Assembly: GCA_028753945.1 (NCBI GenBank)
Contig: JAPNXP010000012.1
Location: forward strand, 3,224,001 to 3,288,000
Reading direction: 5' to 3'
Source: Hexactinellida sp. DTS-2022
Taxonomy: Eukaryota; Porifera; Hexactinellida
DNA length: 64,000 bases
Made by a program: the position numbers and the translations under genes. Under the pieces are notes generated by a model, which saw nothing but the letters and a program-made list of their open reading frames with translations, made no database searches and was not told the DNA's origin. Each line of letters starts with the position of its first letter. Within the stretch, counting starts at the first letter, position 1. Shown here piece by piece: positions 27,357 to 62,994 of the stretch.

Positions 27357-28477
27357 TTACAGCCGAGGCTTGTTGAAACAACTCTTCCCCTCATGACATC
27401 TTGAGTGACAGGATAATGAGGCTTTACGACATGAACAACGAGATGTTGAACAATTCTTGCATTTGCACAAATAAATAACGTTCTGAGAAGCATTCTGCAT
27501 CGCTGTTCTCTGAGAAATAGTATTTAGAGGAACACCTTCTCGATCCAAGAACTTGGAAGGACAAATTTCAAATTGATTTATTGAATATTTTCTGTCTAGT
27601 ACTCCATATTTCGTTCCAATTGAATACATATCCTCCTCTTTACCTAACACGATTCCAAGCATATTTTTATTTCCGAAAGCCAACGAATCTGGTTTGGATA
27701 TTTGCAGTATGATGTTGTCACCAATACTTGCGTCAAGAAACCGATTGCAACTTGATTTAAGCATTCGTTGGTGAAGTTGTACTTGCTTGCGCTTAATTCC
27801 TCTCCTTTGAGTATCAGATCCTACTTGTCGCTTCTGTAGATCACAACGGTGACACCAGACTGAGCATCCGTAGCCTTCTTCTCCTTCAGTTCTGCCACAA
27901 ATTGCATGAATAAACCTATTACAACCCGGACAACTGTGTGTTCTTGATGTTTCTTTCTCACAAACAGCACAGTTGATTGAAGTAATCGTTTGAGATTCTA
28001 CAGATATATGTTCTGGTGTAATCAAGTTACTAATCTCTGATTCCACAGTATTAAACTTGGAATTGATTAGAGTGGATGGTAAGAGTTCTGGGGGATAATG
28101 ACAGTCTTGAGATTCTTCATAAACATGAACAGTGCTGGACAATGGTTGAGATATTTCATCTAAATATGGATCCGAGTGGAAATCTAATTGTTCAATTGTG
28201 CTAGAGTTGTCGGAGTTTATTGGATTGTCAATTGAACAAGTTGAATGCAGTTCGATTGGATTACTAGCATACTCCTGGATAGTTCGGTCAAGATCTTCTT
28301 CGGTAGATATACCAGACCCTAATTCGATTGGAATTCCAAACTCGGATAATCCAATGGGTGGCTTCATGTTGAAAATAGGATGAAATGGTGTCATTCCAAT
28401 TGTTGAATGGTAGTTTGTATTTCTTCTATACTGTACTAATCGGACATATTTCACCCAATTGGCGTCATTTTTATTTT
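27357..28477 (-). pseudogene. KRBA2-like Ginger transposase copy 2, C-terminal part
   Basis: It continues the integrase core right after the third catalytic residue (NDANWVKYVRLVQY onward). It then has a Ser/Glu-rich linker, the PHD-like cluster (CAVCEKETSRTHSCPGC) and the Cys-rich tail (CKCKNCSTSRCSCRK), ending at 27357. It is cut from its N-terminal part (37934-38759) by the 9446-bp element. One copy of the 10-bp duplication joins the halves in phase, with the same spacing as copy 1. No other lesion is seen, so the gene was intact when it was hit. Confidence 0.9.
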
Positions 28478-28650
28478 GGGAAAATTCCAAAAATACTCAA
28501 GTTTAAAAAAAAAATCCAAATATACTCAACTTTTTACTGATACTCAAATATAAAACTAGATCTGTTTCATCGTAACTTGATTCGCATCGTAACTTGATTC
28601 GCACCATGGATGTAATTATTCTATAGTAACTTGATTCGCTTCTAATACCT
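28478..28650. repeat. Left terminal inverted repeat of the integrase-OTU element
   Basis: It holds GGGAAAATTCCAAAAA, repeated ATACTCAA words, and four GTAACTTGATTCGC-like words. The matching right sequences are at 36660-36950 and 37740-37923. Confidence 0.85.
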
Positions 28651-34800: not shown

Positions 34801-36331
34801 GATATGTCTCCTATGAGATATCGAAGCAGATAATTGTAAATATCAGCCCCTTAATATGCTGTTAATTAAGAACGCATTTAACAGGTCAATAACAACTAGC
34901 TGTTAACAGCGTTGTTAACACATAGCTGTTTCACCCCTGATTAAACAAATAGGACATGATCAGCAATATTTATTATCAAATATTCTACTTCAAAGGAAGA
35001 TGTTATCAGGAAATTAAAAGGGAATCTGTTTGTTTCCCCTTTGCACGAAAAGCTTCACAATACGTTGAAAAAAGAAATGTGTCCAACAGTTACTATCCTT
35101 TTCTCTGTCCTCAAAGATGTCACCCCATTCGAAATGGTTTGTTATATGTTCTAATAGCAATATATTAATATAAAATGTATCGTTATGCTAACATGATGCA
35201 TCGTTTTCTAGAGAGAAGAGATGATGAACATACTTCTGCACTGGGCAGAAGTTGCATATGCTAACTTGTATGAAAACCAGACACTACAGAGTAGACATTG
35301 CATTGAATATTCACACACAGTTTTATACTCAGTAGTAAGTGAAAATAATACAATTTGTTTATAAATACAGGTTTCGTATACTTTTTATAGTACTAGTCTA
35401 CACAAGGTAAAAACAAAAACATTAAAAAAATTATTATTAGTTATCTAAAATGGATTCTAGGCAGAGTATTCCCCATCTCCAATGCAAAATTTGAATTATA
35501 GCTCTTTGCCAGTTCTCAATCGGAGAAACAAATAAAAATTAAATTAGTTTTAAGATATAAGATATCATCCATTTATGTTTTTAGATATGTGAACACCTAG
35601 AATCAGAAGTTATTTTAAGAAAATTTTCATCTGCGACGGAAAACATGCCATTTAAGTTACCATCACTCTCAAAAGAAGGGCCATATTATCACCCTATTAC
35701 AGAACAGTGGCAAAGTCAAAAATGTCAACAACTTGGGATTAAATTCACTAAAATTTTTGAACACCATCCCACACACACAGGTATTCTTCTGTCTAAGATC
35801 ATTCCATGGCAAACCGATAAAATTTCAATGGATGGGAATTGCTTTTTCAGATGCATATCTAAGATGATATCAGGCACTGAAGACCATCATGTCAAGCTTA
35901 GAGCGGAAGTATGTAGATACATGGTAACAGATGGCAAACCAATTATTAATCGCTATCTCAAGACCTTCAGTAAGGATTGTTCTCCAGTGTCATACTTAAA
36001 GAAGTCCGCCATGACTGAAAATGGTAATTGGGCAACTGATGTTGAGATAATGGCAATTTCATGTATACTCGACTCAGATGTTTATGTAGCTACACAAATT
36101 TATGATGAAGACAAACTTTGGATACGAACCATTTGGAATCGTTATTCCGGGAGTATTAATCCTCTAAATAAGAATCCACAAGAAGTCACACTTTACATAT
36201 CTAATGTAAATCACAACCATTACGAGCCTGTAATCCGTCTAATGAACTCCGATTACGATTCATTTATGAGGCATGATTCTAGCAACTTGACAGTGGCCGA
36301 AACATCTACTGATCTTGTTGATATACTATAG
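28801..36331 (+). CDS. Integrase-OTU protease fusion transposase (Ginger1-like), 11 exons
   Basis: I assign exons 28801-28947, 29571-29741, 29809-30120, 33231-33337, 33445-33828, 33891-34107, 34179-34313, 34380-34454, 34953-35136, 35219-35334 and 35585-36331. All have GT-AG borders and phases that fit, giving 2595 bases (864 residues) with no stop. Domains in order: N-terminal region; integrase zinc finger (HVDHPG, then CHFCQ); DDE core with D in GIDLF, D in QHDQGREF and E in NGLVEAHN, the last two 35 residues apart; a GPY/F-like module (LGPFPAN); a linker; and a C-terminal OTU protease with DGNCFFR (catalytic Cys) and NHNHYEPV (catalytic His). Ginger1 transposases are known to end in OTU or Ulp1 domains. 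Introns 3 and 8 have swollen through insertions. The exon 9-10 junction is the least certain. Confidence 0.85.
29281..29495. promoter_or_regulatory. Cluster of GTTGCAT/ATGCAAC motifs in intron 1
   Basis: Within about 210 bases GTTGCAT or ATGCAAC occurs about eight times in both orientations. It includes TTGCATGCAA and a 24-base inverted repeat at 29466-29489 with arms ATGATGCAACA. More copies lie at 30240-30290. It could be a binding-site cluster or a small decayed foldback. The function is not shown. Confidence 0.35.
30424..31620 (-). repeat. Family R repeat, copy e, in intron 3
   Basis: The hairpin (about 30440-30585) is followed by the core and ends near CCAAATTTTCAGG-type text shared with 9590-9640. 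It is almost identical to the first part of copy f 1.2 kb downstream and lacks the palindrome array. Confidence 0.75.
31640..33195 (-). repeat. Family R repeat, copy f, full length, in intron 3
   Basis: It has the hairpin at about 31640-31780, the core, and two array units with perfect ACTATACTATAGTATAGT at 33101-33118 and 33164-33181. With copy e it expands intron 3 of the integrase-OTU gene to about 3.1 kb. The splice acceptor follows 35 bases after its edge. Confidence 0.75.
34496..34939. mobile_element. hAT-like MITE in intron 8 of the integrase-OTU gene
   Basis: It is related to 17448-17850 in inverted orientation: TAGGGCTGGTAGAAATGCTG at the left, GTTTCACCCCTG at the right, and GCTGTTAA words inside. 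The duplication is degenerate (GTTATAAC against ATTAAACA). It ends 13 bases before the exon 9 acceptor. Confidence 0.65.
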
Positions 36332-37739: not shown

Positions 37740-37923
37740 TTTCAATAATCCAATAAAACTTGAGTATATTTGGAATACTCCAAAAAAACTTGAGCATATT
37801 TGGAATAATCCGGTAAAACTTGAGTATATTTGGAAAAACTTGAGTATATTTACAAATTAGTTGAGTATTGTTGAGTATATTTGGAAATTTTTAAAAAACT
37901 TGATTATTTTTTGGAATTTTCCC
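37740..37923. repeat. Outer right terminal inverted repeat of the 9.4-kb element
   Basis: Six to seven AACTTGAGTATATTTGGA-like words at 20-30 base spacing end in TTTTTGGAATTTTCCC. They mirror the left end at 28478. Confidence 0.85.
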
Positions 37924-37933
37924 TTTTTATTTT

Positions 37934-38759
37934 CCAACATCATAGTAGTAAAATGTTTTTTAATGTCCTGATTTGCTCGTTCTACAGTACCCTGAGATTC
38001 TGGGTGACGAGGCTTACCCCGGATAATTTTGGTCGTAGGCCACTTTTCGTTAATAAGCTGGAATAACAGGGAATTGTTAAATTCTCTTCCATTATCAGAT
38101 TGTAATATAAGTGGAGGACCTAGTTCACAAAATACGTCCATAAGGAATTCTACAACTTCTTCAGTACACTTTCTTTTCAGCGGTCTGAGGCGAATAAATT
38201 TCGTAAAATGATCCTGATAAACTATGAGCCAATTGTAAGGCTGATTAACTTCGGGAAATACAGTCGATAAATCAATTAGATCAATTTGACTACGGGAAAG
38301 ATAGCTAGAAGAAGAAATAGGCTTTATCACCAGAGATTTCAATGATTTTCTTGATTTTTTAAGCTGACAAATTTCGCAATGGTTAACGAAAGTTTGGCAT
38401 ATAGAACGAGGAATTCCATGAAATTCCATTGAAAGTCGTTTATAAAGCCCAGTTCGACCACAATGATTTTGTTCCATGTGTACCCTTTTTACTGTGTTGT
38501 AAATGTCCTCGATTGCTATTACCCTTTTGTTTGGTACATCACCTTTGCCACGGAGATACAGAATATTTTGATGTTTGACATTTAACAAGGAGCACTTCTT
38601 GTTTAACCTATACCATCTGGAGTAATTTTTGCCATGGGCTGGCTTTCCTCTCACCAAAGTTAGGATCTTTTCATTGATAGTTTCTAATGTTTGAAGTTCT
38701 GAATGATCAGTTCTTGGAATTTGAGAGATTTCTTCAAGAAACGCATCTGCTGATTCCAT
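37934..38759 (-). pseudogene. KRBA2-like Ginger transposase copy 2, N-terminal part
   Basis: It starts at the Met at 38759 (MESADAFLEEISQIPRTDH), which gives the true N-terminal region missing from the main frame of copy 1. It has the zinc-binding region (HCGRTGLYKR, CEICQLKK) and the catalytic residues: D in SQIDLIDL, D in QSDNGREF, and E in GTVERAN, the last two 37 residues apart. The gene is cut 15 residues after the third catalytic residue by the 10-bp duplication and the 9446-bp element. Its partner is at 27357-28477. Confidence 0.92.
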
Positions 38760-39989
38760 TCCCGTAGCAAGTTTTCAATGCAAGTGAAAATACAAGATAA
38801 AAAGTTGGTATTTTTCAACCTTCGTAGATTTATAGCATTCATATATTTAGTTAATGGATGCATATTTTCATTCAGCGAAAGTTGGGAGAATTAAGTCATT
38901 CTTACACTTGAAGTTGAAGATTATTTTCTCATCGGAACAAAACAACACCAAAATCTAACAGGTGTTGCAAAGAATGCAAACACATTTGACCTTTAAGTAA
39001 TAGTGATATCACCATTGACTTGCTAAATTCCATTTCGATGATTACAAACTTGTCTCACTAGTAGATACATGCAAGGGAAATATAACACAACGGGTTGGGA
39101 GTGTACTTCCTCTGGTTGTACATTGCAGCAATTACCTCCCCCAATGTTAAGTACAGGGATGCTTGTTAAATATGAATTTAATAAATAAAATATGTTTTAA
39201 TTCCTATTCGAATTGTCAATACAAAGTATAATTCAAACAAGAATTTGCTATATTAGTAGAAGTATTTACAAAATTAGATGTTATATGTATATTTGCGTTA
39301 ATATTTTCAATAATAGAATTCACATCATCGTCAATTGTAAAATATTCAAAGTGTTTTAATTGCACCTTGTATGTAACAGACATTCACTTACTAACAATAA
39401 TATAACAATAATAACAGTCATTATTTATCTAAGATAGTATTGTAGTAATATGTAATATGTTCAATAGTATCTGTAATTACAATATGGAGAAAATGGGTAA
39501 GTTATGTAAAAAACCGTTAATAGAATCTACAATTGGTTAAAGACATATTCATTTGAATTGATAAACAGAAAGAACATCCTTATAGGAGAGTACAACCTCT
39601 ATATTTTCAATTGCTAATACGAATTATCAAAGAGTCACTAGACCAGAACACAAATTTCGATATAACTGACGAACGAAAAGGAAATTGAGAAATCGGGCTT
39701 CGAGGTGATCATCTCTAGGAAATTATGTATCTTTTATTCAAATTTGAAATCTATAGCACCAATGATCTAGTCAGGCCATCGCCTACGGCCGGCCGGCCGG
39801 AACACGACCAGAACGATTTGAGTACTGTTCATCTTATGGTATAAAACTATAGTAACGTATTTTACTGGAAGAAGCACACTAATAATTTTTATATGCAAAT
39901 ATAAATTATTAGCCTGCTATATGCTTTGTACAAAAGTCCTATCCCAAATATCCAAGAGGTATTGGTACCAAAAGCTGTCATTATTGGCG
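38760..39989. other. Upstream non-coding part of Ginger copy 2
   Basis: No gene is visible between the transposase start and the right inverted repeat. A GGCCGGCCGGCCGG word lies near 39788. This stretch is longer than the matching part of copy 1, so it may hold an unrecognised insertion. Confidence 0.45.
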
Positions 39990-45680: not shown

Positions 45681-47317
45681 AATTAATGACTAAGAATAAG
45701 ATTGAGATTTTAAATTATAAATAAGTAAGCAAACTAGTATCATATAGTACGTATATAGATTAATATTGAAGATTGACAAAATGAATACGAGTCCTTTTGT
45801 AAGTTTATTATAATGCGAGGTAAAAATGTAAATAGTATTCCCTAGCAAAAGCGAACGAGATTATAGGCTCGTAATAAATATTTATCCTAATCTACTCGCG
45901 AATTCAAACCATTTCACTCAAGCCACCAGTTTAATCTCCAATACATATAATTTTCCATACATTCACCATAAACAGAACATAATTAATCGCGACACATTCT
46001 CAAATTAATGTTGAGTTTATTGATAAGCTGGTTGTGTTGATAGTTGGTTTAATAGCTGGTTGTTGCTGTTAAATCAGCTTATCAATATCACTAAGTTGAG
46101 AATGTGTAGCGAGTAAATGAGTAATTACGTTCTATTTATGTAGTAAATGTGTTTAAATGTGCATCTATATTAACAATACAAAGGCGTAGGCTCTGGTATG
46201 GTTGGTAGGGCCATGGACATACAAAAGTTTGCCAATTGAAATACCAATGTGCAATGGCCTCCCAATGTCACCTTAATGGACTAACCTATGGGCCCTACTA
46301 ATCCAATTCCGAGACTACGTCAAACTCCGTATGTGGGAATTCTCCGAATCTAAGATGTTGACATTTTCAGACTACTTTCTCAATATTGGAAAAGTAGTCT
46401 AAAAATAACAATTGTTATAATATTCAACCAGAGATGGGGCCAAATCCCTAGGGAATTAGGGTTTTAAAGATTTTAAGATTAATCCCAGTCCATTCAGAAG
46501 GGATTGGGAATTAATCAGAAAATCTCAAACTCAAGGTCAGTGTGTGGGAATTAAGGAACTTCTAAATGATATTATTTCGAAACTGCTCTGAATTGGTGAA
46601 TGACAAATAGGACATGTTAATCCAAATTATTTTATTTAATGCTGACATCTACACCAATTTGCATGTCTACAGGGTCTGCAAGTAATTTCGTTTCTCGTAC
46701 CTTCAAACAAACAACAAATGTGTATTGTAATTATATGTAATATAAATTATATTATTGATAATAAATAATTATTTAGAAGCTTCATTATACTTTACTTTCA
46801 CTAAGTAATATAATCTTTGGACAGGTGCGAAGTCAGCCCTAACTATAGTGGGTGTCAAGTGCGTAGGAGTAAGTGTAGCCAGCGACCCCAATAGGGGCTC
46901 AGCAGAAAACCTCTTACACACTAAGAGGCCTTGATAAATGTTAATTCAGGAGCACTTTCTATAAAAAGGTGCTATGTAACAACTGAAAAAGAAATAGCAC
47001 AGTACATATTGACTGTGAAAGCTAACTAATATGATTACATTCTTGAGCTTAGCTGTGGACGCAATTGCAATTGCATCTCTTACGAAAAAAAGCACAACCC
47101 TTAGTATATTGATTATCTTTCTTTTGGATACAAACAACTTGTGACAATCAGGTGTTCTATATTTTGAACAGCGATTTTATTTATATTGAGTCGAAGTAAA
47201 TCCATGTTAATTAAATATCAATTACTAAATAGTATTAATAATATTTCTTATACGTATTCTATTATTAGCCAATAAATCATCATGTTTAAATAAAACACAA
47301 GATCTGAAAAGTACATA

Positions 47318-47419: not shown

Positions 47420-48225
47420 TATATCAACAAATATTGTGTTGAGTGAAAACATAAATAAATTACAACTGTTATTGAATACTCACATTAGGATAATTAATAA
47501 ACAGTCGGAGTAATGCCAGCATAAAACATAGAGACAAGGTAGTCGGAAAATTCTAAACATTTGATATTTGGAATTTTGGACAAATGCCGACATACGGAGT
47601 CGGACAAATGCAGGCCCCTAGTTAGTTTTTATCTCAAATAGAGATGCGTTTTTTTAATCTCCAAATTACTTTAATATAATCCGGACAAACACACACATAC
47701 TCACAAAGAACGATTGTGCTTTTAATATATAGATTATTGTGGTCTGCTTAAGCACTGCCGGATTTGGTAGCCCGCGAAACCATAGGCGGGCAAACAATAG
47801 TGCAATCTTAAGGATTAAGGTTATCCACCAGTTGTAATTCTGGTAGTTCAATAATTGTTTTGCCATCTCGTAACCTATCTTATTAAAGAGGTTTTGATCC
47901 GGGGTCCCGGCTGTCTATTAACGGCCACCCCAAATAATATTATGAGGGGCGAAACGATACCTATTTTAATTTGAACATACAGAGTTACAGACTAGCCTCA
48001 ATTCGCAGGTCTAGACTATATTCGGTTCGCCGGGTGACCGCTTAACCGCTGCTAATATTGGTTAACTGTTACAGATTTAATTGAGCAGTTAACCGGTCTG
48101 TTAATCTAGTTAAATAATATCAATGTAATTGCGTATATAAAACACTAATTTAAATTATATTAATTTTGTTAGAATATGGTAATCTTAATTCTATGCATTT
48201 CCATACGTAGTAAATTCCTATAAAC
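47420..48225. other. Non-coding stretch with a solo MULE-like end
   Basis: At 47575-47618 the text GTCGGACAAATGCAGGCCCC matches the right terminus of the RING-MULE elements (GGACAAATGCAG, then CCCC). No matching left end was found, so it is a solo or truncated end. Confidence 0.45.
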
Positions 48226-49926: not shown

Positions 49927-51616
49927 GCTATACAGTAAGTGCATAGGCGTCGTAAGTGCATGTCAATCCTTCGGGCACACAGTAGTTTATTTGGACCATT
50001 CACAGGAATTAGGTATTTCCAGGTCAGATAGACCTATCAAATGTATTATATACCAATAAGGGATCGATACCTGTGAATCAATTTATGGACTCAGAAAATT
50101 AGTACGGCTTCTTATTTTTAAGTTATGACGTCATAGTAGTTTTTTAGACTCCCATAGTTTCCACAAATATTTGCCAAATTTGTATTTTCAAATAAACTAG
50201 AGCTAATTAATTTATGTGCAACTCTAAATAAATGCATGGTGTAGATATAAATTAACTTGATAATGTAATTCTAGATCCTAGGCCTGTTAAATAACCAGTT
50301 TTATTAACATCAACGATTCGACCAGTTTTTATTGATCCAATTTTGGCATTTGATCACCCTTGCTTTTTCTATTCCATTACAGCAACCTGTATAGATTCTG
50401 CAACCCGTATACTTCTAAATTATTCATTGTAGTTTACTAATAGATGAAATTTCGATAAGAAAAATTAAAATCTTGGTATATGAATTTTCAAAGCCCCCGT
50501 ATATAGACAAGTAGATTTTGGTTTGCACGGGTTTGCGCGGGGTTAGAAAGTGGTTAAAATAGAAGTTTATTAGGTAATTATAAGATAAAAACGTGTCTGG
50601 GTACACGGCACTTGACGGCACCACAAAATTAGGCACTTCCTAAAAAGGTATATATCTGTCCGGACTTTTAGTTTCAACATATTTTGTAATGATCCACTAC
50701 ACTTAGAGTTGACGTGATATATATTTGAAACTCAACTGTTTTAGGATGATCTAAGGTACAATAATATGTATTGAAAGTCTTAGGTCATAATGAATGAAGC
50801 CTACAGAGAATATGAGCATGATCTAAAGCAAGATTATGAAACCACAAAATTCAAAAATAAAATGATTCTGTTGTGTCATGATTTGATGCATTATATTTCC
50901 TAAACTCTTTCGAATTTTTAGCTGAAATTTATCTTTTCCTACGTTTTAGCTTATGCTTAAAACGATAAAAATGGTTTAGTGTGATTTGAGAACTTGAAAT
51001 TTTGCACTAATTCCTGTCAATAAACCACTGTGGGGCAGCCCGGAAATTCCGGGTAAAGTCCGGGTATAGTACTAGTAGCATAGGGGCAACCCTTACGGGC
51101 CGCCCGGACATTTCCGGGCACCCGGGCGGGTTACGACGCTATGAGTAAGTGGCTTAGAAATTAGTATGTATCTCAAATAGAAAGTGTTACTAAGTGTCTC
51201 TTTAACAACAAACAGCCCTTATTTGCAAGTACATATGTAGTTAATTCTAAATTCGTATTTAGCATATGCAATTACTTAAATAACCGTCTAGTCTCTAGGT
51301 AAATTCTAATATTTTACAAACTTGTTTACCTATATTGTCAATAACAACAACAAATAGACATAATATAAATTTGTGAGTGTCAAATTCGTATTCAGCATAC
51401 TTGTTTACCTAGTATTCACATTTAGAAGTGAACAAAAAACTGGATTAGATCTGGGATATAATTAATTTTTAACAACCCATAATATTTAGTCAAACATTTT
51501 CTATATAAGTATTACCCATAGCCTACTCTATATATGGTCTGACAGTAGATGTACCAGGGATGCACAAGAAGATGGGAAATTTTAATTTTTTAATGTTTTC
51601 TATATTGAACTACTAA
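49927..51616. other. Non-coding stretch with a GC-rich repeat and an inverted-pair member
   Basis: A GC-rich block lies at about 51030-51145 (GCCCGGAAATTCCGGG and GGGCCGCCCGG). The second member of the 45255 repeat is at about 51180-51520. No gene is seen. Confidence 0.5.
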
Positions 51617-51990
51617 GGGGCTGCATGCACTTGTCAGAATTTTGGAGTTGTCATTTGTCAGAATAATGGGAGTTGTCACTTGTCAGAATGGCTTTTTGTA
51701 GAATTGTCACTTGTCAGAATGGCTTTTTGTAAGACTGTCACTTGTCAGAATGGCTTTTTGTAGAATTGTCACTTGTCAGAATGGCTTTTTGTAAAACTGT
51801 CACTTGTCAGAATGGCATTTTGTAAGACTGTCACTTGTCAGAATGGCTTTTTGTAAAACTGTCACTTGTCAGAATGGCTTTTTGTAAAACTGTCACTTGT
51901 CAGAATGGCATTTTGTAAAACTGTCACTTGTCAGAATGGCTTTTTGTAAAACTGTCACTTGTCAGAATGACTTTTTGTTAGATTGTTACT
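51617..51990. repeat. Terminal tandem array of RING-MULE copy 2
   Basis: It starts GGGGCTGCATGCACTTGTCAG, the same terminus type as 59955, and continues with two outer variants and about ten units of roughly 30 bases with the core CACTTGTCAGAATGGC. It is the left terminal inverted repeat of the MULE whose gene lies at 52102-54860. The partner array on the right is missing. Confidence 0.85.
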
Positions 51991-52101
51991 TTATTTTTAT
52001 TAATGTAAATACTTGATAAAGAGAAATAATATAATGCGTAATAGAATATGTCAAATTATTGTCAACTATTAATTAATTAACCCCTGAGTATATATGGTTG
52101 T

Positions 52102-54860
52102 TCAATTCGTGAATATTTCTAATCTTTCTTCTATGTTGCCACGGCATATAGGACACTGATCTCCTAAATTTACTAGTCTTTCGCTGCAATCACCACAAAA
52201 GCTTGCATGCCGACATGGCGTAAAAATCCATGCATCTCTCCTTTGTGAAAGGCACACAGAACAAATTATTTCCATGTTTGTGGTTTGTTCATCTTCAACA
52301 TCTGAGAGATCTGATTCACTAGAAAGATACACAGCATGTGTTTTGATATCGCCAACAGTGTAACTCATTGCTTGCACAAATTCCCATGGAGTCAGTTCTC
52401 CATTATTCAACTTTTGTTTCAGGCTTAATCTGTGTTCTCCAATTTTCAAATCTGTTTTAGCTCTTGGTCTACTAATTTCCCTACCTTGGTATAAGCGACT
52501 TATATCATTATCTGTATCCTTAATGATTACATTAATGTGTGTCATAAAGGTCCATATTCTGGGGTGCACAGTGGGCATTTTCAAGGGTGTAAGGGGAAGT
52601 AGGAAAACTATGCTAGATAGACTCTAATGAAGTATTATTGACATATAGGTTATCGGTAGCTGCAAACCGAATGGCAATATCAAAAATGATATATGTAGTC
52701 TCCTAACAGTAGTTTTGGACGATCAATGGTAAATTCATGATTTATTAAATTTTTGGTTCTGTAACAATCATATATTAATCACCCATGATTATTGATAATA
52801 CATCTTAAACTTGGGTAAAATAATTGAAATGTTAGTCTTATCCCTAGGTATTCTATATCTCATTGATTTTATAGAAGGGTAGATGGATGCTGAGTGTAAC
52901 TATCGCATGTGCAATTACTCTTAGGAAACCCTACATAGTTTTAGGTAGCATAGTTGTATAATATGGAACATTGCTAGCGCCTAAATTTCTTCCGGATCTC
53001 ATAAAATTATTTTACTGAAATTCAAAAGCATGGATGAATTTCTAACTTGGTATGCTGATTGAGAGATTTGACTTTAATATATCATAAACTGCTTTGTTAT
53101 TCATTATCACTATCAGTTAATGGAAGAAAAAAACTAAATTAATTGGATAATTAGTGGAGAAATTCAATTTACATTATATGAATTTTCTGAGGGGACAATG
53201 GTAAATTGAAAAAAATCATTCCGGGGCGGGTTTGGGCGGATGCAAAACTAATATAAATATTTTGCTAATATGTCTATGTAACATTTAAAAGCATTAGAAT
53301 ATGTGACCACGACCGAGCACCTAATGTTTTTGAACCAAAATGGCATATAAATTTCCGTCCGAAATCCATAAATACTTCCATAAGATATTGTAAATTTAGC
53401 TTCAATTCCACAATGAAATTGTATTTATAGCAATGACATCAAGAAGTTACAGTCTTGAGTCTTGATATAAATTACATATTGATAGTATGAATCATCATAT
53501 GGGTAGAAATCGTACAAGTTTGATTACGATCGTAATATCACAACAGAATTATTGATAGAAAATATATTTAGATCAGTCATTCCAATTCATATTATTCGTT
53601 ACCCCGCTAGTATATGACTTCGAAAATTAGTATTTCTAGGTTTGAAACAATGGTGAATCTGAAAAAATATAAAAGTTCGTAATCCAAGGGTGTTGACAAA
53701 TAACTCTATTTCCCCTGGTTTGCCCACTGTGGGGTGGTTACACCTCATTCTAGTCTTTAGCTTGGAGTGGTAGCTCTCTGCCCCGTTATTAGTTGCTATA
53801 TTTATTTCATTCACTGAGAGTTCCTCAGCTGGTGTTTGATTGAGCCATCGTTTCTTAAAATAGTTCTTGAGTTTTTCTAGCTTAGACATCTGATCAGCTG
53901 GTAGAGCAGGGGTTTCTAACTTTCTATCAAGCTATATGTGGGGATTATCAGTGAGCAGGCAAAAAAGGAATAGCCATTAGTAGTCGTATGAACTTGGAAA
54001 CCTGGACATTCTCTTTAAAACTCTGGGTGAGTCCAAGCTTCTGTGTTTTTGCCCAGATTCTTTGTGTGAAGTCAAACCAGCACCCATATAATTTCATTTG
54101 AGGATAGATTTCCTTAAAGGCGTTTCTGGGTGCTGGTTCCCAATCTGACATTGACCCCTTGGGCTGGAAATGGGGAATAAGTGAAGCAAGGTCCTCCAAA
54201 ACTGCTGTGTATAATTCTTGACTCTTGGATGTCATTATACAATGGATGGCAGGCATAGTGTGTCTTCCAACAGCCACAAATATTGTCCACAATTGAACAA
54301 ACTGTTTTGGAACTGTCTGGAATGTGCCATCAAATTGGATGTTCGTGATCTCGTTGAGGAGAATCTTCATCTCATCTGAAAAAAAGATTACGGCAGTTTG
54401 GCTTCCTCTTGTTACTGAAAATTTGAAGTTTTCCCAAAAGTTGATGTTGCTAACATTTCACAGAAGTCAGTAGCTGTTAGAGGAATTTTAGGCTCAAGTG
54501 TTCTTCTTGCGCGATACAATGATGACTCGCATTCTACAAACGATATATCAGCTGCACAGGGATTGTGTCGTCAAATATTTTTCGAAGGTTCATTTGTGAA
54601 TGTTTTGTAACACTTTTGCACTTAGCCTTGAGTTGGAATACATCAGATTTATAGTCTTCAACACTATGATTATGTTGATTCATTGGAGTGATTAAATTTC
54701 TTAGACGATTCAACTTGCTAGTTCCTTTGCAACCAGTTCTAAAAATCGCGTTTGAGGTATACATAATCCTCGGTTAACTTTGAATGAACATACTTGTGTC
54801 CGTCGCAGGTTGTAATGACTTTTCCAATTGATCGTTTATATTCCTGTGAAGTGAATTCCA
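52102..54860 (-). pseudogene. MULE transposase with C-terminal RING finger, copy 2, interrupted
   Basis: It reads from a Met at 54860 (MEFTSQEYKRS) through a FLYWCH-like zinc-binding region (AIFRTGCKGTSKLNRL, then HNH near 54670). The MULE core at 54370-53948 has D in QFDGTFQTVP, D in MSDWEPAPRNAF and the GCWFDFTQ motif; 53889-53730 has E in NNGAESYHS. After a 1.16-kb hAT insertion, the last exon part (52565-52102) ends in a C3HC4 RING finger (CSVCLSQRR, CRHASFCGDC, CPICRG). Frameshifts near 54400-54540 and 53890-53950 disable it. The Asp in WFDF replaces the usual His. The RING suggests a ubiquitin ligase activity fused to a transposase; that is inferred from its repetition in sister copies. 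Confidence 0.85.
52569..53729. mobile_element. hAT-like element (about 1.16 kb) inside the RING-MULE gene
   Basis: The ends are CAGTGGGCA and TGCCCACTG. On the coding strand the flanks are CCACCCCA and GCACCCCA (7 of 8 equal, allowing one offset base). Removing the insert with one duplication restores the reading frame and the CNHPRIWTF text matched by copy 1. No transposase is visible inside. Confidence 0.85.
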
Positions 54861-55763
54861 TTATCGTTTATAAAATGACTAACTAATTCGGAGTTTAAAT
54901 ACTTGACATTTGCATTGTTCGTAACTAATAGATTGATTTGAATTGCATGAATCGCTAACACCCACAAAAATAACAAATTCCGATTGTTGTTCCATAAGGT
55001 ACAAATAGTTATCTGAAATTAAATTCTAATGGTTTCAGCAACCACTAAAGTCACATACAAAAAATGGCTCCAAATTGAACTCACCATCAGTAGTGGAATA
55101 CGCTATACGGAGAAGAAATGACTTAACAAATGACTGAATACATAGATTGAAAGGAAGTGTCTTGTGGTCAGCAAATATGTTTGATTATGCTAGAAAGTTT
55201 AAGTCGACGCTCGGTTCAAGGATTTGAAGATAGGAGATGTGATAATTAGAACCCGACATCATACGGTATAGACCGAAATGGTCCTAGGGATCCGTCTGTA
55301 GAAAGGAGGACAAGACAACAGATATGTAAAGCCACAAGATTGAGTCAAATGATTGGTAATTTGTGGTAAGGTAATACAAGCATGTCTAAAACTGGTGTAT
55401 GTTGTTTACTCAGTTTGCCAATCATCTAACCAAAACTACATGAGTCAAAAATAGAAATCGCTCGTCATTAAAAGTCAAAGGTCTAGAGAAATTATCGTTC
55501 AAACGTATTCCTTTAAAAGGTGTGTTAAAGCAAGTTCCTGCAAAACAGATTCAATTTCTCGGATGTCACTAATTGCAGCAATGGAAACGGATATACTCTG
55601 TCTATTAAAATAGGCTGAGGTGGATAAATAAGCATTGATTTCAAGGTACAAATCTACTGAGATATTTTTTCAGCCATTTTAGCGAGAACAAACGTTATGT
55701 TGCTTTCATTACGGAACCACACCAACCAACTATAAGGTAAATAAATCAAGGTTAACTTATCTT
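54861..55763. other. Non-coding stretch upstream of RING-MULE copy 2
   Basis: The right-hand terminal array expected for the MULE was searched for by eye and not found. No gene signal is seen in this AT-rich DNA. Confidence 0.45.
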
Positions 55764-56209
55764 TCAAGTCCTGTGGAGAGTTACCACAAACTTCTCTTTC
55801 TCTTGACTCTCGGATCTCAAGCTGAGTTGTAGTGTTTGGTTCATCAATTCTTCCTCTTTTGCATCGTATGAGAAGCGATTCCGTTTGTAAGGTTTGGATG
55901 AGTAATATGCTGGGCAGCCGGGCAGTAAACTTGGTACAGCGCCTTCCTTCAGCTTTGGATTTGCCCGCGGTACTTCAGTAAAAGTACCATCTCCTCTTGG
56001 GACTTTCCAAAGTGTAGTATATGTTTTCTTTCTGAAAATGGTTGATACATACATAGACCACCTTCAGGTCACCGATATCCTCGCGACGAAGAGCGCATGT
56101 CCAGGCATGATTCAGGGTTGGTGGATTTTGAGGCATCTTGAACACAAGGAACATGGTCATCAGGGTTGTAGTTGCTCTTGCATCCGGGAACAGAACACGA
56201 GTTAGGCAT
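55764..56209 (-). pseudogene. THAP zinc-finger gene fragment with two frameshifts
   Basis: It begins at a Met at 56209 (MPNSCSVPGCKSNY), the usual N-terminal THAP position. After a frameshift near 56150 come FKMPQNPPTL and VCINHFQKENIYYT, completing the C2CH pattern. After another near 56010 come GDGTFTEVPR and the GAVPSLLPG motif that ends THAP domains. A short charged tail ends at 55764. THAP domains bind DNA in host regulators and in P-element-like transposases. No transposase core is visible, so either origin is possible. Confidence 0.75.
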
Positions 56210-57481
56210 GAATAGAAGCTAATATGAATAAAATACCAAAGCGAAATTAAAAGGATGAGATTTTACGTCAATAGAAGAGTTTGGAATAAAATATGATCAA
56301 TAATTGTATATATTTCAAGAATATTTCTAATTAATGTGGTTGATTATGATTATTATTTTTGAAATTAAATATTGTGGTTGGATAAATATTACTATCTTCT
56401 CCTTCAACCTTGGTCCACATTTTCTAGGTTACTGTCAGGCCATATATAGAGTAGGCTATGGCCCAGCTCTTTTAATTGTTTATAAGATTTAACAAACCTT
56501 AAGAAACTGTATGGAGGATTTCTTGATACTGTCATGAGTTCACTGTACTCAATCAGGAGGCCATAATGAACGAAATATTTGTTATTTATATTTATTAGTT
56601 GTATATCTTGGCCTTCATCTTGCACTGACACTTTCCTCTGCAAGTAGAACTATACACTACATAAACGAAATTTAGTTAAAATATCGTTAGAATTATCTAA
56701 AACAATTTAATAATTTAAGTAGGTTTTAATATTATATAAAGTTATAACATTTTAGGCTATACCTCGGTGTTCTTTGAGCTGGCGAACCTCACTCTCCAAA
56801 TATAGGATAACTCCACTTTTTTCTAACTTCAAATTAGCTTCTGCATATTCAAAGCCTAATGGACATGTTTGCAGCATTTTTCTGGGTATAAATTATCTGG
56901 AATTGGGGTATCAGATACTAATTGATGCTTTGAAACATCTGAAAGGGTTCTGCTCAAAGCAAATGGAATCTTTGTTGTAGAAATACATTCAGATTTTCGT
57001 TGAGGTTGAATATTTCGAGGTACTTGAGGTATAAGGTTTTCTGGGATATTATGGACAATTAATTTAAAATTGAAGGATCTTTCACAAGATGTACATGACC
57101 ATTTTTCTCTTGTAAACGATAATTGTGAATATTAATTGGACAAACAACTAAGATGATGTGAACACTATCTACTATGTAACATGCCACGTTCTGAATGAAA
57201 TAGGCATTTATTGTGATGAATGTTATATAACAAATGCAGTTCCATAAACTAAGCAGTGAATGCAGTCAATCGAATGGCAATGGTTACAACATTTGGTGTC
57301 CGTTTTCACGGATACCAAATTCTATGCGAGGAATATTTTACCTATAGGAATATAAATAAAATACTAAATGAATATAATTGGTTTAAATCATTAATGATAA
57401 CAGGGCTAACCTTGATTGCATCTAAAGTCTGGAAAGAATGTCAGGTTAGAATCCAAGAGATTCAAAAAATGAGGACTTTTT
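56210..57481. other. Stretch with unassigned minus-strand frames
   Basis: A 79-residue minus frame (56643-56404) and a coiled-coil-like minus segment near 56780-56880 (NLKLEKSGVILYLESEVRQL) could be decayed exons of the THAP gene or of another gene. I recognise neither. Confidence 0.3.
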
Positions 57482-58053
57482 CAGTGCTGCCAACCCTCCC
57501 GCTTTGGGCGGGAGGGTCCCGCTTTTTGATGTTTCCTCCCGCTCTCCCGCCTCCCCTCTCAAACCTCCCGCTTTTTGGATGATTGTATATGTAAATATTA
57601 GAATCTGAATTTATAATTACAAGCAATATATTTTAGAAGTATTCACTTAACTAATTTACTCTAACCCCAGAAACAAATTTGTCTATTTTAAAAATACCAT
57701 AATTCTGTATATTATCTTGTATTTCCAATTTTCCATTCTGACACATCATTAGGAAATTTTTATAACACACCATTTAGGAAATTTTTATTTATTTATATAT
57801 TTTATAATAATAATAAAATGCTCACTGCTACCTTATATTTCAATATGAGAGGGTAGAAACTAATTGATAGGTAGAGAAATGTTTTTATAATGCCTTTTAT
57901 TCAGGTATTCTTGCTAATTTAACTAAAATACTGACCTCCCGCTTTTTCTCCCGCTTTTAGAGTATCAACCTCCCGCTTTTAGATGAAACTCCCGCCACAG
58001 GTCCCACTTTTGGGTATATATAATATATATCATATTTTAGGTTGGCAGCACTG
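57482..58053. mobile_element. MITE (572 bp) with CAGTGCTGCCAAC ends and CTCCCGC repeats
   Basis: Ends are CAGTGCTGCCAACCCTCCC and, in reverse complement, CAGTGCTGCCAACC. The word CCTCCCGCTTTT repeats near both ends. CTTTTT is present on both sides. The CAGTG-type ends suggest hAT, although only 6 duplicated bases are seen. Confidence 0.75.
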
Positions 58054-58849
58054 CTTTTTACAAGAAGGCCTATATATTGACCGATTCTTGAAATTGGAAC
58101 GGTTTTTATTTCTACATCATAATTGGAATCAGAATCTTCAAGATACGTAGTTGGTATAGCAACTGTGTCTCAGGTATTCTAGTGTTCATGACTAGTCTGA
58201 GTTTCATGAAAAGAAGGAATATCAACTGTTAGTACATGTGAAATACTTGTAGATAATTCTTCAGATAATCTGCGTTTTTTGTGAGTAGGCTGTACTTCTG
58301 AAAAAGAAAATACTTCAGCCATTTGTTTGAAAGATGCCTGGTATATATTTCTGGAAATCAAAATATTAAAGATAAATAAATTTGATTTAAGCATTGGTAA
58401 GAATGGCTAGAGCTGATTACCATTTCTGTTCAGCTTATCTGACAGCTACTAAGTTAATTAAGCTCTGGCGCTTAGTAGGTTAGGCGCTTTAGTAAGTTAG
58501 GCGCTAGCGCCTAGTTATTTTTAATATAAGGATTTTTCAAACATTTTGAGGAGAAATTTATGCCACGAAAACAATAAGCGCCAGGGTGCATATTCTAAGC
58601 ATTACGGTATTTTAGCTTCCTTTCCAATAAGCAAACACCTAAATTTACAGTAGAACAATTCTTAGGTTGTCAAATATCCTTCACATCCTGTATAAGTCCA
58701 AATTTGAGTAGTTGTTAGAATATACATATCAACAGGTTTCCTTTAACGAAGTCCTTCATTGGCATTTTCAGGGAGTAAGTGTACATTAATGTAGCTTTTG
58801 AATATTTGAATAGGATAAGAACTAAGCTAACTTAGAAATACTAAGCTTA

Positions 58850-59780
58850 CTAATTTCTACCAATGTTATGTAAAAACTCAAATTTTTCTGATATTATTGC
58901 ACGACACGTAGGACACTTCATTCCTTTTTCAAATTTATGTGCGCATTCTTGACATATATTCGCATGTGCACATGGGATGAAAATGTATGTTATTAATATT
59001 TCACTTAGGCAAACGACACAGTATCCCTCTTCCGGAATTTCTTCACTTGACGATTCACTGGAAGAGCTATTGTAGGCAGATTCTTCTTTGTTAGTGTAAT
59101 GTTTTTCCAATGGTGCTGCTAATCTCTTAAATATTCAATCGGTGTTAATTTATTGGGTTCGAGTTTACTTCTAGTCTTCTACAGACTTCGCGTAGCTTTG
59201 TTTTTTCAATATTTTGTTGCTTTTGATAGTCTGAAATATCCATTTTCTAATCGTTGAAATTCTAGATAATATTTCTTCATTGTCTCTTCTAGATGCTCCA
59301 TAAAACTCAAAATATTAGGCTCTTAACCCGAATTTTTTAATTAAGAGCTTTATGATATACAGGTATCTCATACTCATTGTTTGTTTTATCCTTTGAAGCA
59401 TAGACTGAAACCCCTTCTTTATGTGCCCATTCTTTGTATATAAATTTTAGGAATTTCTGTTTAGCCTTGTGATCAGTATTTGACAATCTATCATTTCTTG
59501 TGAAAGCATAGTTAATACGGGAGTGATTTCCTCTTGTGGGAGTAATGGAGAGCCATAATGCATTTAGCCGTCTATTAAAATTTTTGGCACGAGCCCATAT
59601 TGCCTGAGAAAAATGGAAAAGACATCCAACAACGTTGATGGAATAATGATTGCTTGAAATGCATTTCTAGAGGCATCTTCATATTCTCCCTCTGCAAAGT
59701 CAGGCTTAAATTCTGGTTGAATTTCTAGAATGTTTCTATCACAGCTTTATACAGAGATCAGTTTTCCTACTCACCCTGAC
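58850..59780 (-). pseudogene. MULE-RING copy 3, strongly decayed
   Basis: The clearest part is a C-terminal RING finger at 59110-58850 (CVVCLSEI, CAHANICQEC, CPTCRA), preceded by a Ser/Glu-rich stretch as in the other copies. Upstream, across many stops, MULE-like text is readable near 59560-59650 (GCLFHFSQAIWARAKN) and the region before it. It is more divergent than copies 1 and 2, so it represents a separate, older lineage of the same fusion. Confidence 0.7.
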
Positions 59781-60302
59781 TCATCAATACATGGGCGCAA
59801 GGGAAAAAATGTCCATCATGCTTATGAAAATAGTAATAATTGATAAAATATTTTTGGTACAACTTAGAATATAGCGTCAAAATTAATACTCTTGACCTCT
59901 TTAAGATTGGCAACCATTCAGTTTGATATTTAAGCACTTCCTAGTACTATATTTGAGGTGCCTGCATTTGTCCGAATTTTGATGTTGTCATTTGTCCGAA
60001 AATGTGGGACCTTCACTTGTCAGAATCGTTTTTCAGTATGTTGTCACTTGTCCGAATCGTTTTTCAGTATGTTGTCACTTGTCCGAATCGTTTTTCAGTA
60101 TGTTGTCAATTGTCCGAATTGTTGATTGTTATTTGACACTAAATCATTTTATACTCTTATTGTTTTTTGACACTATATCATTCTATTGATATTTCATTTA
60201 TAATCCTGATTGTTTTTCAAATGCAAGTTTGAATATGGTTTTGCGGTTCTAAAACCAACTTACCAACAGATATAAATTAAAACATTTTTTCTTTGAAACA
60301 AG

Positions 60303-61868
60303 ATGGAATACACTAGAGAAGAATATAAACGAACCTCAGGCAACATCTTCTGTACTCCTGATGGAAACAAGTATGTCCAGTCCAAACCTATGGAGAATTA
60401 TATCTACCTGAAGTGCGCTATATTTCGAACCGGTTGCCGAGGCACGAGCAGGTTGAACAGAGAAACAAATCTAATCACTCCCTTGAAAAATCACAATCAC
60501 AGTGTTGAGCTTTACAAGACTCAAGTTTATCAACTTAAAACGAAATGTAAATATGTTGCCAAAAGTCCCAAACAAATTTGAGAATGGTGTTCGATGATGT
60601 GACTAGAAGAGACCCTGGTCCTGCCATATCTCTTTTCCGGAATGTGAGTCATCGATGTATCGAGCTAGAAGGATGATACGGCCTAAAATTCCATTAACAG
60701 CAAACGAATTTATTGACATGCTCCCCACAACTCAGTATAAGGAATATTTCAAATTTGCTGCAAGATCTGGAGATCAAATTGCAGCAGTATTCTATTCTGA
60801 TCAGATGAGTATGCTTTTAGCAGAAATTACAAACGTGCAATTTGATGGAACGTTTTTCACCGTACCCAAACAGTTTTTTCAACTATGGACTATATTTGTT
60901 TCAGTTGGGCGTCACAGTCTACCAGCAATTCATTGCTTAATGTCTTCAAAAAGTCAAGATTTATACAAAGCAGTTTTGGAAAAAATTGCGAATGAAGTCC
61001 CCCTGTTCCGGCCTTTTGCTTCGATGTCTGATTGGGAACCAGCAGCCAGAAATGCATTTAAAGCAGTGTACCCGGAAATCAAGATGTATGGCTGCTGGTT
61101 CCATTATACTCAACGGATATGGGCCAAATCACAGAAGCTTGGATTGAGCCAAGGATTCCATAATGATTTACAGACAACTACTTACATAAGACAACTAATG
61201 GCAATACCATTTTTGCCAGAAGCTCTAATATATCCCACAGCTAGTCTCCTTCAAATTCCGACAGTACATCATTCCGAAAGGTCGAAATTTGAAAAGTTGC
61301 AAGTATATTTCAAAAGACGTTGGCTAAGGCAAGTTACACCGCAGGAACTATCAATTTATGATCTAACTATTGTCACCAACAATGCAGCTGAATCTTACCA
61401 TTCCAAAATAAAATCTATAGTAAAAACCTGTCATCCACGAATATGGACCTTTATGGAATCAATTAATCATATAATAGAGGTACTGATAATGACATTGGTA
61501 GATTGCGCGAGGGAAGGGAAATCAGTAGGCCAAGGAAGAAGAAGGACTTAAAACACGATGAAGATAGGATGAAATGTAAACAGAAACTCAAAGATGGAGT
61601 ATATGATCCATTAGAATTTCTGAAAGCTATGAGCCATACAATAGGCAATGTTGTGAGTACTCAAGATGCATTCTCAAGTGATTCTGAAGATGAAGGTGAG
61701 AACGATGATGCTCCAACAATGGGGAACCAATGTATTGTATGTCTTGGACCACGACTGGAAACTTGGGTATTTATGCCATGCAGGCATGCAAATTGTTGCG
61801 CTGATTGCTGCCAAGAGATAGAGAATCTAGCACAAACTTGCCCTGTGTGCCGCTCCACCATTGATTAA
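60303..61868 (+). pseudogene. MULE transposase with C-terminal RING finger, copy 1
   Basis: The start is MEYTREEYKRTSGN at 60303. Domains in order: a FLYWCH-like zinc-binding region (AIFRTGCRGTSRLN, then HNH); the MULE core with D in QFDGTFFTVP, D in SMSDWEPAARNAF, C and H in GCWFHYTQ, and E in NNAAESYHS; a helical region; and a C3HC4 RING (CIVCLGPR, CRHANCCADC, CPVCRS) ending at 61868. About three single-base frameshifts (near 60575, 60640 and 61481) break it. The corrected reading is about 520 residues, with no gap between transposase and RING. The terminal arrays are the presumed binding sites. Confidence 0.88.
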
Positions 61869-62071: not shown

Positions 62072-62455
62072 TCGGACAAATGACAACATACTGAAAAACG
62101 ATTCGGACAAATGACAACATACTGAAAAACGATTCGGACAAGTGACAACATACTGAAAAACGATTCGGACAAGCGACAACATACTGAAAAACGATTCGGA
62201 CAAGTGACAACATGCTGAAAAACGATTCGGACAAATGACAACATACTGAAAAACGATTCGGACAAGTGACAACATACTGAAAAACGATTTGGACAAGTGA
62301 CAACATACTGAAAAACGATTCGGACAAGTGACAACATACTGAAAAACGATTCGGACAAGTGACAACATACTGAAAAACGATTCGGACAAGTGACAACATA
62401 CTGAAAAACGATTCGGACAAGTGACAACATACTGAAAAACGATTCGGACAAGTGA
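62072..62455. repeat. Right terminal array of RING-MULE copy 1, about 12 units of 31 bp
   Basis: The unit core is CATACTGAAAAACGATTCGG followed by ACAAGTGACAA. Units are nearly identical. Since 31 is not a multiple of three, all frames stay open, which produces three overlapping false proteins of 140-157 residues on the minus strand. Confidence 0.93.
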
Positions 62456-62525
62456 AGGTCCCACATTTTCGGACAAATGACAACATCAAAATTCGGACAA
62501 ATGCAGCTTCCCCCTATATTTTACC

Positions 62526-62994
62526 GTGACCTACGTTATAATAAGGCCTGTTCATTAGTGTTAAATTTTGGACCATGGATGTCGTTTAAGTCCATTGATT
62601 CTTTTTACAATAAATGTTATAGTAAGAGATATATAACCAAGTAGTAATCCAGAAGGAGTAAATATTATTGGGTTTAATACAAAGCACATTTGAAGTAAAT
62701 TAATGTTGCAAAAGTACAAAATATTAAAGAAAACATGAAAGTGAATATAAATTTTTAGCAAATAACATTTGAAGAACAATAACAACTAATTGGGTTTAAC
62801 TTTCTTTATTATTAGAGTATTTTTGACACGAACCGACTGCAAAGGTAACAAGGCATTCATATTTTTCGTTCTGGATTACTACTTGGTTACATATCTCTAA
62901 CTATAACATTTATTGTAAAAGAATCAATGGACTTAAACGACATCCATGGTCCAAAATTTAACACTAATGAACAGGCCTTATTAACGTAGGTCAC
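62526..62994. mobile_element. MITE (469 bp) with about 120-bp inverted repeats
   Basis: It starts GTGACCTACGTTATAATAAG and ends with the inverse; arms continue through GGACCATGGATGTCG and beyond. A truncated copy is at 22669-23053. No clear target duplication is readable. It starts 4 bases after the RING-MULE duplication. Confidence 0.88.

Follow-up and report, generated by a model that had tools for sequence, protein, structure and literature searches.

A hexactinellid sponge family of MULE transposases with a C-terminal RING finger

Phantom elements (Mutator/Foldback), for example Tm1 of Meloidogyne, encode a FLYWCH finger and a MULE core in a protein of about 500 amino acids and have 9-bp target-site duplications (TSDs); the Tm1 passages of PMC3169594 also describe the inverted ends as composite, with tandem repeats that vary. 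The Ghost clade of MULEs occurs in arthropods and cnidarians, and the Ghost element described as most complete, found in Myzus cerasi, carries a RING near the MULE transposase, according to the Ghost section of PMC6446971. Table 1 of the same source includes a C3HC4 RING finger entry for the Phytophthora MULE 37_Pi. In Chapaev transposases and in RAG1, a RING lies in the same chain as the DDE transposase or recombinase; the RAG1 RING has E3 activity toward itself, histone H3 and karyopherin alpha 1, as summarized in the relevant passages of PMC4411706 and PMC3124419. A statement in PMC4411706 (2015) places RING and Chapa in no other known transposable elements, whereas a passage of PMC3630058 reports RING domains in retrotransposon proteins.

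MULE and RING sequences in the window

We analyzed a window of 64,000 nucleotides from Hexactinellida sp. DTS-2022 (contig JAPNXP010000012.1, positions 3,224,001 to 3,288,000), in which a sequence-only reading had reported three copies of a MULE transposase joined to a RING, here called A, B and C. The features are as follows.

46567..46689, minus strand: fourth family RING, relic fragment (52% over 44 aa to L039)
51612..52045, minus strand: copy A, 31-bp subterminal repeat array at the element's 3' end (repeat spacing 31)
52102..52623, minus strand: copy A, frame that spans the post-core region, the acidic/Ser linker and the RING at the C-terminus (PF13920, 9.5e-13)
52126-52266, minus strand: copy A, RING itself
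about 52567..53730, no strand: copy A, insert (about 1.16 kb) that separates the catalytic core from the RING, with hAT-like inverted ends (approximate, by eye)
53599..53931, minus strand: copy A, catalytic region, second part (TNNGAESYHSK; frame, tblastn)
53948..54457, minus strand: copy A, MULE core (PF10551, 1.2e-9)
54564..54764, minus strand: copy A, part of the N-terminal region (tblastn, L016 residues 6-72, 73%)
58850..59134, minus strand: copy B, acidic/Ser linker and RING (PF13920, 1.7e-11)
58889-59029, minus strand: copy B, RING itself
59337..59666, minus strand: copy B, decayed MULE remnant (tblastn)
59947..59954, no strand: copy C, left TSD CTATATTT (sequence)
59955..60123, plus strand: copy C, left inverted end with 31-bp repeats
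60303..60581, plus strand: copy C, N-terminal frame (tblastn, 72% to L028)
60607..61551, plus strand: copy C, MULE catalytic frame (PF10551, 5.9e-11)
61467..61868, plus strand: copy C, post-core region, acidic linker and RING (PF13920, 4.1e-10)
62345..62513, minus strand: copy C, right inverted end (31-bp repeat array 62072-62455)
62514..62521, no strand: copy C, right TSD CTATATTT

In all three copies, MULE-type transposase sequence is followed by a RING on the same strand, which confirms the side-by-side arrangement first reported. Both parts are recognized by Pfam in A and C. In copy B, the RING is a Pfam match and the MULE part was found by tblastn: PF10551 was not detected by Pfam in the frame at 59337-59666, and 58877-59926 aligns with residues 166-529 of L064 in a tblastn search with family proteins (E 7e-12, 22% identity). 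The RINGs of A, B and C retain every one of the eight zinc ligands as well as an Arg directly behind the last. The C-terminal ends differ: copy A is the only window copy with the RING tail, which has an aromatic residue at +11; copy B has Leu at +11 and a longer end; and copy C stops five residues past the last zinc Cys, so it is without the +11 tail.

All three copies look dead. Copy A is decayed by frame breaks as well as by the insert, copy B is strongly decayed and the frame of copy C breaks near 60581-60607 and 61467-61551. Copy C is a complete element, with inverted ends and a matching TSD on both sides. Structure prediction from the window pieces gave models too poor to use (mean pLDDT 45.5 and 50.1). 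Separately, the relic RING at 46567-46689 is absent from the sequence-only reading.

The family across the genome

Copies A, B and C are decayed members of one large family with 127 scored MULE matches in the same 112-Mb genome. Among the 150 PF13920 matches listed, 61 lie at most 2.5 kb downstream of a family MULE match on the same strand, compared with two on the opposite strand and one upstream, which rules against a chance join. A point on the other side is that, with the RING matches listed, a RING is seen behind at least 61 of the 127 MULE matches and not behind all of them; many of the copies are decayed. We examined 61 family loci, half of them chosen for open frames, and the intact copies whose search had been proposed were found: 32 of the 61 have one unbroken frame that is 500 codons or longer, and in 24 of the 32 this frame retains the full set of eight RING ligands. 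The DDE triad is kept in 29 of the long frames (E is gone in L045, and the first D in L054 and L061) and the N-terminal CCHH in 31; 23 keep the RING ligands, triad and CCHH together. The eight long frames outside the 24 have lost a ligand or the whole RING, and a sub-clade (L053, L054, L058, L059 and L061) has Y or F as the third RING ligand with the frame still open.

The chain order is a FLYWCH-like finger, the MULE core, a further region, an acidic/Ser linker of 25-37 residues and the C-terminal RING. PF10551 and the RING are above the Pfam cut-off in one chain in 8/8 family proteins scanned; a ninth protein in that scan, L070, is a RING-less MULE and is not counted among the eight. PF04500 (FLYWCH) appears in five of the eight, always under the cut-off (for example, 21.4 against 23.6 bits in L002), and in none of the other three. 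The RING holds the same chain position across subfamilies that are 34-37% identical to L002. A tree separates the family from nine RING-less MULEs by a single split with modest support. Searches for relatives in viral contigs and in bacterial and archaeal genomes gave 5 and 105 pattern matches, respectively, none confirmed by tblastn. On the host side, six contig starts of 2 kb contained none of seven simple telomere repeats (two consecutive units), and a silicatein motif found nothing.

MULE and RING might instead be neighboring but separate genes or messages, as are the two ORFs of the Myzus cerasi Ghost element, in which a 420-bp RING ORF lies beside a truncated transposase ORF (Ghost section of PMC6446971). 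The MULE and RING parts of A and C do lie in different frames; however, the breaks in these copies look like decay, and 24 of the 32 long frames run unbroken from the core into a complete RING. Moreover, 44 of the 61 linked pairs are spaced by 184-274 nt, and no Met column between core and RING is common to more than 5 of the 24 complete copies, so there is no conserved separate start for the RING. The unbroken frames, the tight spacing and the missing start led us to set this explanation aside as very improbable; open copies run as one frame, so at the level of frames the split into two genes named beforehand as a refutation was not found.

The family also shows signs of recent movement. Identical or near-identical frames stand at separate sites (L050/L051, L055/L056 and L062/L063). 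Exact TSDs of 8-9 bp flank 21 of the 61 loci, against 3 of 2450 swapped-flank control pairs, and an inverted 14-bp seed is present at 50 of the 61; inverted ends and TSDs of 8-11 bp are marks of MULEs, as are PF10551 and the DDE triad. Arrays of 31-bp repeats occur in A and C, and other subfamilies have subterminal repeats of different sequence, as judged by eye.

Rates of change and RING type

We compared the rate of change of each segment in three independent diverged pairs. The RING (dN.125,.153 and.154) changes about as slowly as the core (.121,.171 and.165), and the linker is faster (.49,.32 and.57); ratios are rough, since dS is about 0.7-2.2 by segment in the informative pairs. In near-identical pairs the RING has changed little, and silent changes are not in excess (silent/replacement 0/2 in L064-L066, 1/0 in L062-L063, 0/1 in L058-L059 and 0/3 in L052-L054), so recent constraint is unsupported. 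Such counts would suit a RING that is captured host DNA, carried passively and not maintained, and MULEs tend to pick up host gene fragments (capture passages of PMC6446971). Against this, the RING occupies its fixed place in diverged subfamilies and over longer spans is as slow-changing as the core; this spread and long-term slow change led us to set passive capture aside as highly unlikely. Together with the one-frame copies in diverged subfamilies and the one split from the nine RING-less MULEs, the slow change gives good support to the proposal that the fusion is an inherited trait of the family.

The family RING resembles IAP- and MDM-type RINGs in sequence. All 24 complete RINGs have Arg after the last Cys, V or I as the third position of C-x-[VI]-C and an aromatic residue at +11. 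In ligase RINGs, such positions serve E2 contact and the activity of the dimer. A profile of 19 RINGs searched against solved structures returned BIRC3 first and BIRC2 second (2.8e-11 and 1.3e-10), and the alignment to both is gapless from the last Cys to the +11 aromatic. The nearest solved relatives carry E3 ligase names, and the prediction of ubiquitin-ligase activity for the family RING is, by this resemblance, well motivated. The transposase chain ends in a well-kept ligase-type RING, so the enzyme may also tag proteins with ubiquitin.

Alternatively, the RING could be a structural zinc module for transposase dimerization, or for DNA or histone binding at the ends, with no ligase activity. 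In piggyBac-related transposases, C-terminal cross-brace zinc domains serve to bind histone H3 or the DNA ends (PMC8086355), and the sub-clade without the third zinc ligand keeps an open frame. Yet a purely structural module need not keep the Arg, V/I and +11 aromatic, which 24/24 complete RINGs do, and the closest solved relatives of the family RING bear E3 ligase names. We consider the structural explanation rather unlikely.

We favor, as fairly probable, the reading that A, B and C are dead members of a large Phantom-like MULE family whose one-chain transposase carries a RING of the IAP/MDM kind, presumably dimeric, with a proposed ubiquitin role. It builds on the architecture, the open frames, the slow RING change, the mobility signatures and the split from RING-less MULEs. 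More tentatively, this transposon lineage may have a transposase that is a dimerization-switched E3, in which pairing of the element ends pairs the RINGs and switches on ubiquitination of the transposition complex or target chromatin. In the mechanism proposed with the favored reading, the N-terminal finger and core would bind the subterminal tandem repeats as putative sites and bring the ends into a pair, and the meeting of two or more transposases would bring their C-terminal RINGs together. The paired RING, via its C-terminal aromatic and the Arg that follows the last zinc Cys, could then recruit and activate a host E2~ubiquitin. The ubiquitin might end up on the transposase itself, where it could limit copy number or take the complex apart once cutting is done, and/or on chromatin proteins close by, a target reported for RAG1.

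Comparison with known systems

The MULE core and the repeat-bearing composite ends, which part of Phantom also has, liken the family to Phantom; the N-terminal CCHH may be a FLYWCH-type finger, with a Pfam match below the cut-off. Tm1-A is described as a 496-aa FLYWCH-MULE protein, and no word in the text of PMC3169594 begins with 'ring', whereas the proteins here end in a RING. In the Myzus cerasi Ghost element, the RING has its own 420-bp ORF, the transposase is truncated and the Ghost section of PMC6446971 gives no TIR or TSD as found and reports no RING conservation. The first two Asp of Ghost are 84 positions apart (Ghost passage of PMC13359780), whereas L002 has D182 and D244 with 61 residues between them and so falls outside the Ghost spacing of about 84 positions. 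37_Pi is a single entry in plant/oomycete group 50 (PMC6446971, Table 1). Chapaev and RAG1 belong to another superfamily (Transib/Chapaev) and have the RING N-terminal of the core, whereas it is C-terminal in this MULE family.

Among the closest solved relatives, the RINGs of IAPs (BIRC2/3 and XIAP) and of MDM2/MDM4 are likewise C-terminal, and BIRC2/3 share the aromatic 11 positions beyond the last zinc Cys. IAPs carry BIR, whereas the eight family proteins scanned have no BIR at E <= 0.05, nor other IAP domains, and have a transposase instead.

The architecture had been thought not to be a standard MULE type. This holds insofar as our full-text literature search, within the text it returned, found no description of a conserved in-chain MULE-RING architecture, and so did not bring up the catalogued fusion that had been named as a second possible refutation; the Ghost RING ORF, the Phytophthora MULE RING, Chapaev and RAG1 soften the novelty. 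MULE transposases, the family suggests, acquire regulatory domains and retain them.

No recombinase with a ubiquitin-ligase RING of its own is better known than RAG1. In 2011 the effect of this activity on V(D)J recombination was 'yet to be established' (in the words of a passage of PMC3124419). The present family adds a second superfamily in which the RING is conserved, in-chain and of the IAP/MDM type, with many frames open and recent movement indicated. As an independent system, it would let a transposition assay ask directly whether ubiquitination by the transposase governs turnover, disassembly of the complex or the chromatin at the target. If the switched-E3 reading is true, a RAG1-like coupling of DNA cutting to ubiquitin would have evolved separately in the Mutator superfamily, at the opposite end of the protein.

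Copies of the family within the window

Four loci in the window belong to a family of Phantom-like Mutator (MULE) transposons, in which the encoded chain runs from a FLYWCH-like finger through the MULE core and an acidic/Ser linker to a C-terminal RING. A different MULE is also present.

52102-54860 (-): copy A, MULE and RING both supported by Pfam
58850-59780 (-): copy B, RING alone supported by Pfam, MULE part visible only against family proteins
60303-61868 (+): copy C, MULE and RING both supported by Pfam
46567-46689 (-): a fourth RING, a relic belonging to this family, overlooked in the sequence-only reading
23612-25118 (-): different MULE in two frames, without RING; PF10551 3.2e-11, FLYWCH 8.9e-10, above cut-off

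That reading had placed a RING after the MULE in three copies, and a RING is indeed found downstream of MULE-type sequence in A, B and C. All three are decayed, with broken frames, and in copy A an inserted stretch, about 1.16 kb long as read by eye, interrupts the element. Copy C is a complete element, with inverted ends of about 170 bp containing 31-bp repeats and an exact 8-bp target-site duplication (TSD) on either side. In A, B and C alike, the RING retains its eight zinc ligands and, directly following the last of them, an Arg. Among the window copies, only A has the C-terminal tail with an aromatic residue 11 positions after the last zinc Cys (+11); copy B has Leu at this position, and copy C reaches a stop five residues past the last RING Cys.

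Several other features lie in the window. A TIR-like repeat (47574-47619; 80% to the end of copy C) is located about 0.9 kb from the fourth RING relic, and near copy C, immediately beyond its end, 62539-62605 and 62917-62983 form a perfect inverted repeat of 67 bp, perhaps a small non-autonomous element. An OTU-like cysteine protease frame at 35585-36331 (+) (PF02338, 8.2e-11) is a possible deubiquitinase. Three integrase-type frames are alike by eye [19951-21903 (-), 27357-28496 (-) and 37857-38774 (-)], the first having an rve domain and a SCAND3-like zinc finger. A type III hammerhead ribozyme at 11091-11144 (-) scores 58.7 bits, exceeding the Rfam cut-off, and an 1881-aa open frame at 1-5646 (+), which extends beyond the window start, is made up of a repeat unit that recurs many times in similar form (SFSLDMNxGxLxLxFSETVN, by eye).

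Linkage of MULE and RING in the genome

The catalytic part of copy C has at least 127 scored matches (126 of 1902 candidates scored) in the genome assembly of 112.4 Mb and 18 contigs. We compared 150 scored matches to the RING entry PF13920 (606 candidates in the genome) with the 127 scored family MULE matches. Sixty-one of the 150 lie on the same strand and no more than 2.5 kb downstream of a family MULE match, with a spacing of 184-274 nt in 44 of the 61 pairs; the controls gave two on the opposite strand and one upstream. Seen from the MULE side, 61 of the 127 have a linked RING among the scored matches, and the others are decayed, have a RING beyond the 150 scored or are without RING. Two further MULE searches, with coordinates compared by eye, linked seven more RING matches (C11:3943065, C12:4749643, C12:834351, C13:3583511, C14:1952732, C1:12155440 and C8:942222). 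The remaining 82 of the 150 are without a MULE neighbour among those scored, and part of them are presumably host genes. Four equal-scoring matches with no MULE neighbour among the scored matches (C1:8927435, C2:2424992, C11:12673143 and C18:3098925; frames of 557, 485, 190 and 225 aa) are possibly another repeated RING-bearing element. The RING at C1:7575267-7575419 (-) sits 1.8 kb downstream of a PF10551 match at C1:7577244-7577546 (-), which is absent among the matches listed in three family searches, and it may be a RING beside another MULE type.

MULE and RING both exceed the Pfam cut-off within one frame in all eight family proteins scanned, with the FLYWCH match below threshold in five (L002, L011, L055, L064 and L058). 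We examined 61 family loci, comprising the 30 best matches, L001-L030, and 31 hand-chosen from the remainder, L037-L067, the latter mostly for long open frames; 32 of the 61 have a stop-to-stop frame of at least 500 codons, a share which is thus not that of a random sample of the 127. All eight RING ligands are retained in 24 of these 32 long frames, and together with the DDE residues and the N-terminal CCHH in 23; the exception, L045, has lost the Glu and has a short N-terminus. In the 24 complete copies, the linker preceding the RING is 25-37 residues long, of which 7-10 are acidic and 5-10 are Ser or Thr, and there is no conserved Met between core and RING, since no Met column is common to more than five copies. 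In an alignment of 15 sequences hand-picked from the 32, no sequence departs from the others at the eight ligands, at the Arg following the last Cys or at the DDE residues.

The long frames without all eight ligands are L013, L016, L024, L053, L054, L058, L059 and L061. L024 has lost the end of the RING. In the sub-clade of L053, L054, L058, L059 and L061, the third ligand, a Cys, is replaced by Tyr or Phe, a change that apparently arose on more than one occasion, with frames still open. Our tree contained the 32 long frames, copy C, the RING-less loci L068-L072 and L074-L076 (L073, longest frame 250 aa, was omitted) and the RING-less window MULE (23612-24526). We call an L locus RING-less when the open frames of its fetched sequence contain no RING pattern, and the window MULE RING-less because its frame has no RING domain. 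A single branch separates the nine RING-less rows, with support of 68/58 and in 64% of bootstrap trees, which is modest support in view of the long outgroup branches; these rows were picked by hand and represent a small part of the MULEs in the genome. Broken RINGs are scattered among complete RINGs.

Mobility and constraint

A 14-bp inverted seed occurs between the flanks of 50 of the 61 loci, and 21 have an exact 8- or 9-bp TSD outside it at matched offset (23 in a looser initial pass), compared with 3 of 2450 when flanks were swapped between loci. The frames of L050/L051, on different contigs, are identical and those of L055/L056 and L062/L063 nearly so, as expected from recent movement. 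L020/L021 are identical too, but only about 2.5 kb separates them and their orientations are opposite, so this pair may be a local duplication.

Overall dS is below 1.6 in 21 pairs, which comprise twelve near-identical ones and a remainder that amounts to three independent comparisons. For L050-L052, L027-L028 and L044-L045, respectively, dN is.125,.153 and.154 in the RING,.121,.171 and.165 in the core and.49,.32 and.57 in the linker, with dS of 0.7-2.2 across these segments. Over this span, constraint on the RING is roughly as tight as that on the catalytic core. The loss of the RING end in L024 and the near-identical pairs weigh against tight constraint: the latter show no excess of silent RING changes (silent/replacement 0/2 in L064-L066, 1/0 in L062-L063, 0/1 in L058-L059 and 0/3 in L052-L054), the changes being too few to judge.

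Kind of RING and comparison with known elements

Among solved structures, the RING frame of copy A alone matches the RING2-BMI1 chimera, MGRN1, BIRC3, XIAP, BIRC2 and MDM4, among others. When 16 family RINGs and those of copies A, B and C are combined into a 19-RING profile, BIRC3 and BIRC2 come out at the top, followed by MUL1, CGRRF1, MGRN1, MEX3C, BIRC7, MYLIP, XIAP, MDM2 and MDM4, and the profile's alignment to BIRC3/BIRC2 is gapless from the last zinc Cys through the +11 aromatic. Both this aromatic and the Arg that follows the last Cys matter for dimeric RING activity, and 24 of 24 complete RINGs have the two residues. On these sequence features, the RING is a putative ubiquitin ligase. 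The reading most in keeping with the conserved C-terminal tail is that ubiquitination would be switched by dimerisation and coupled to the transposition complex. Five of the genome's seven BIR-domain matches cluster at C5:4489675-4500492 as IAP-like genes, a conceivable source of the family RING.

According to passages of PMC4411706, a RING is present in Chapaev and RAG1 but was known from no further transposable element in 2015; contrary to this statement, RING domains are described in retrotransposon proteins (PMC3630058). PMC6446971 lists a C3HC4 RING for one Phytophthora MULE and, for one Ghost element, a RING encoded by an ORF of its own; piggyBac (PMC8086355) and RAG1 (PMC3124419) offer parallels. 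The word start 'ring' does not occur in passages of PMC13359780. The full-text papers searched included none on a MULE-RING-FLYWCH transposase fusion and, for a sponge MULE transposase with a RING, a single one whose title concerns another topic; the FLYWCH-MULE-RING architecture is likely to be undescribed so far. Phantom-like elements, with FLYWCH-MULE proteins and Foldback-like ends, are described without a RING in passages of PMC3169594. Distinguished by its conserved C-terminal RING of the IAP/MDM type, the present lineage is a new form of the already known Phantom-like MULEs.
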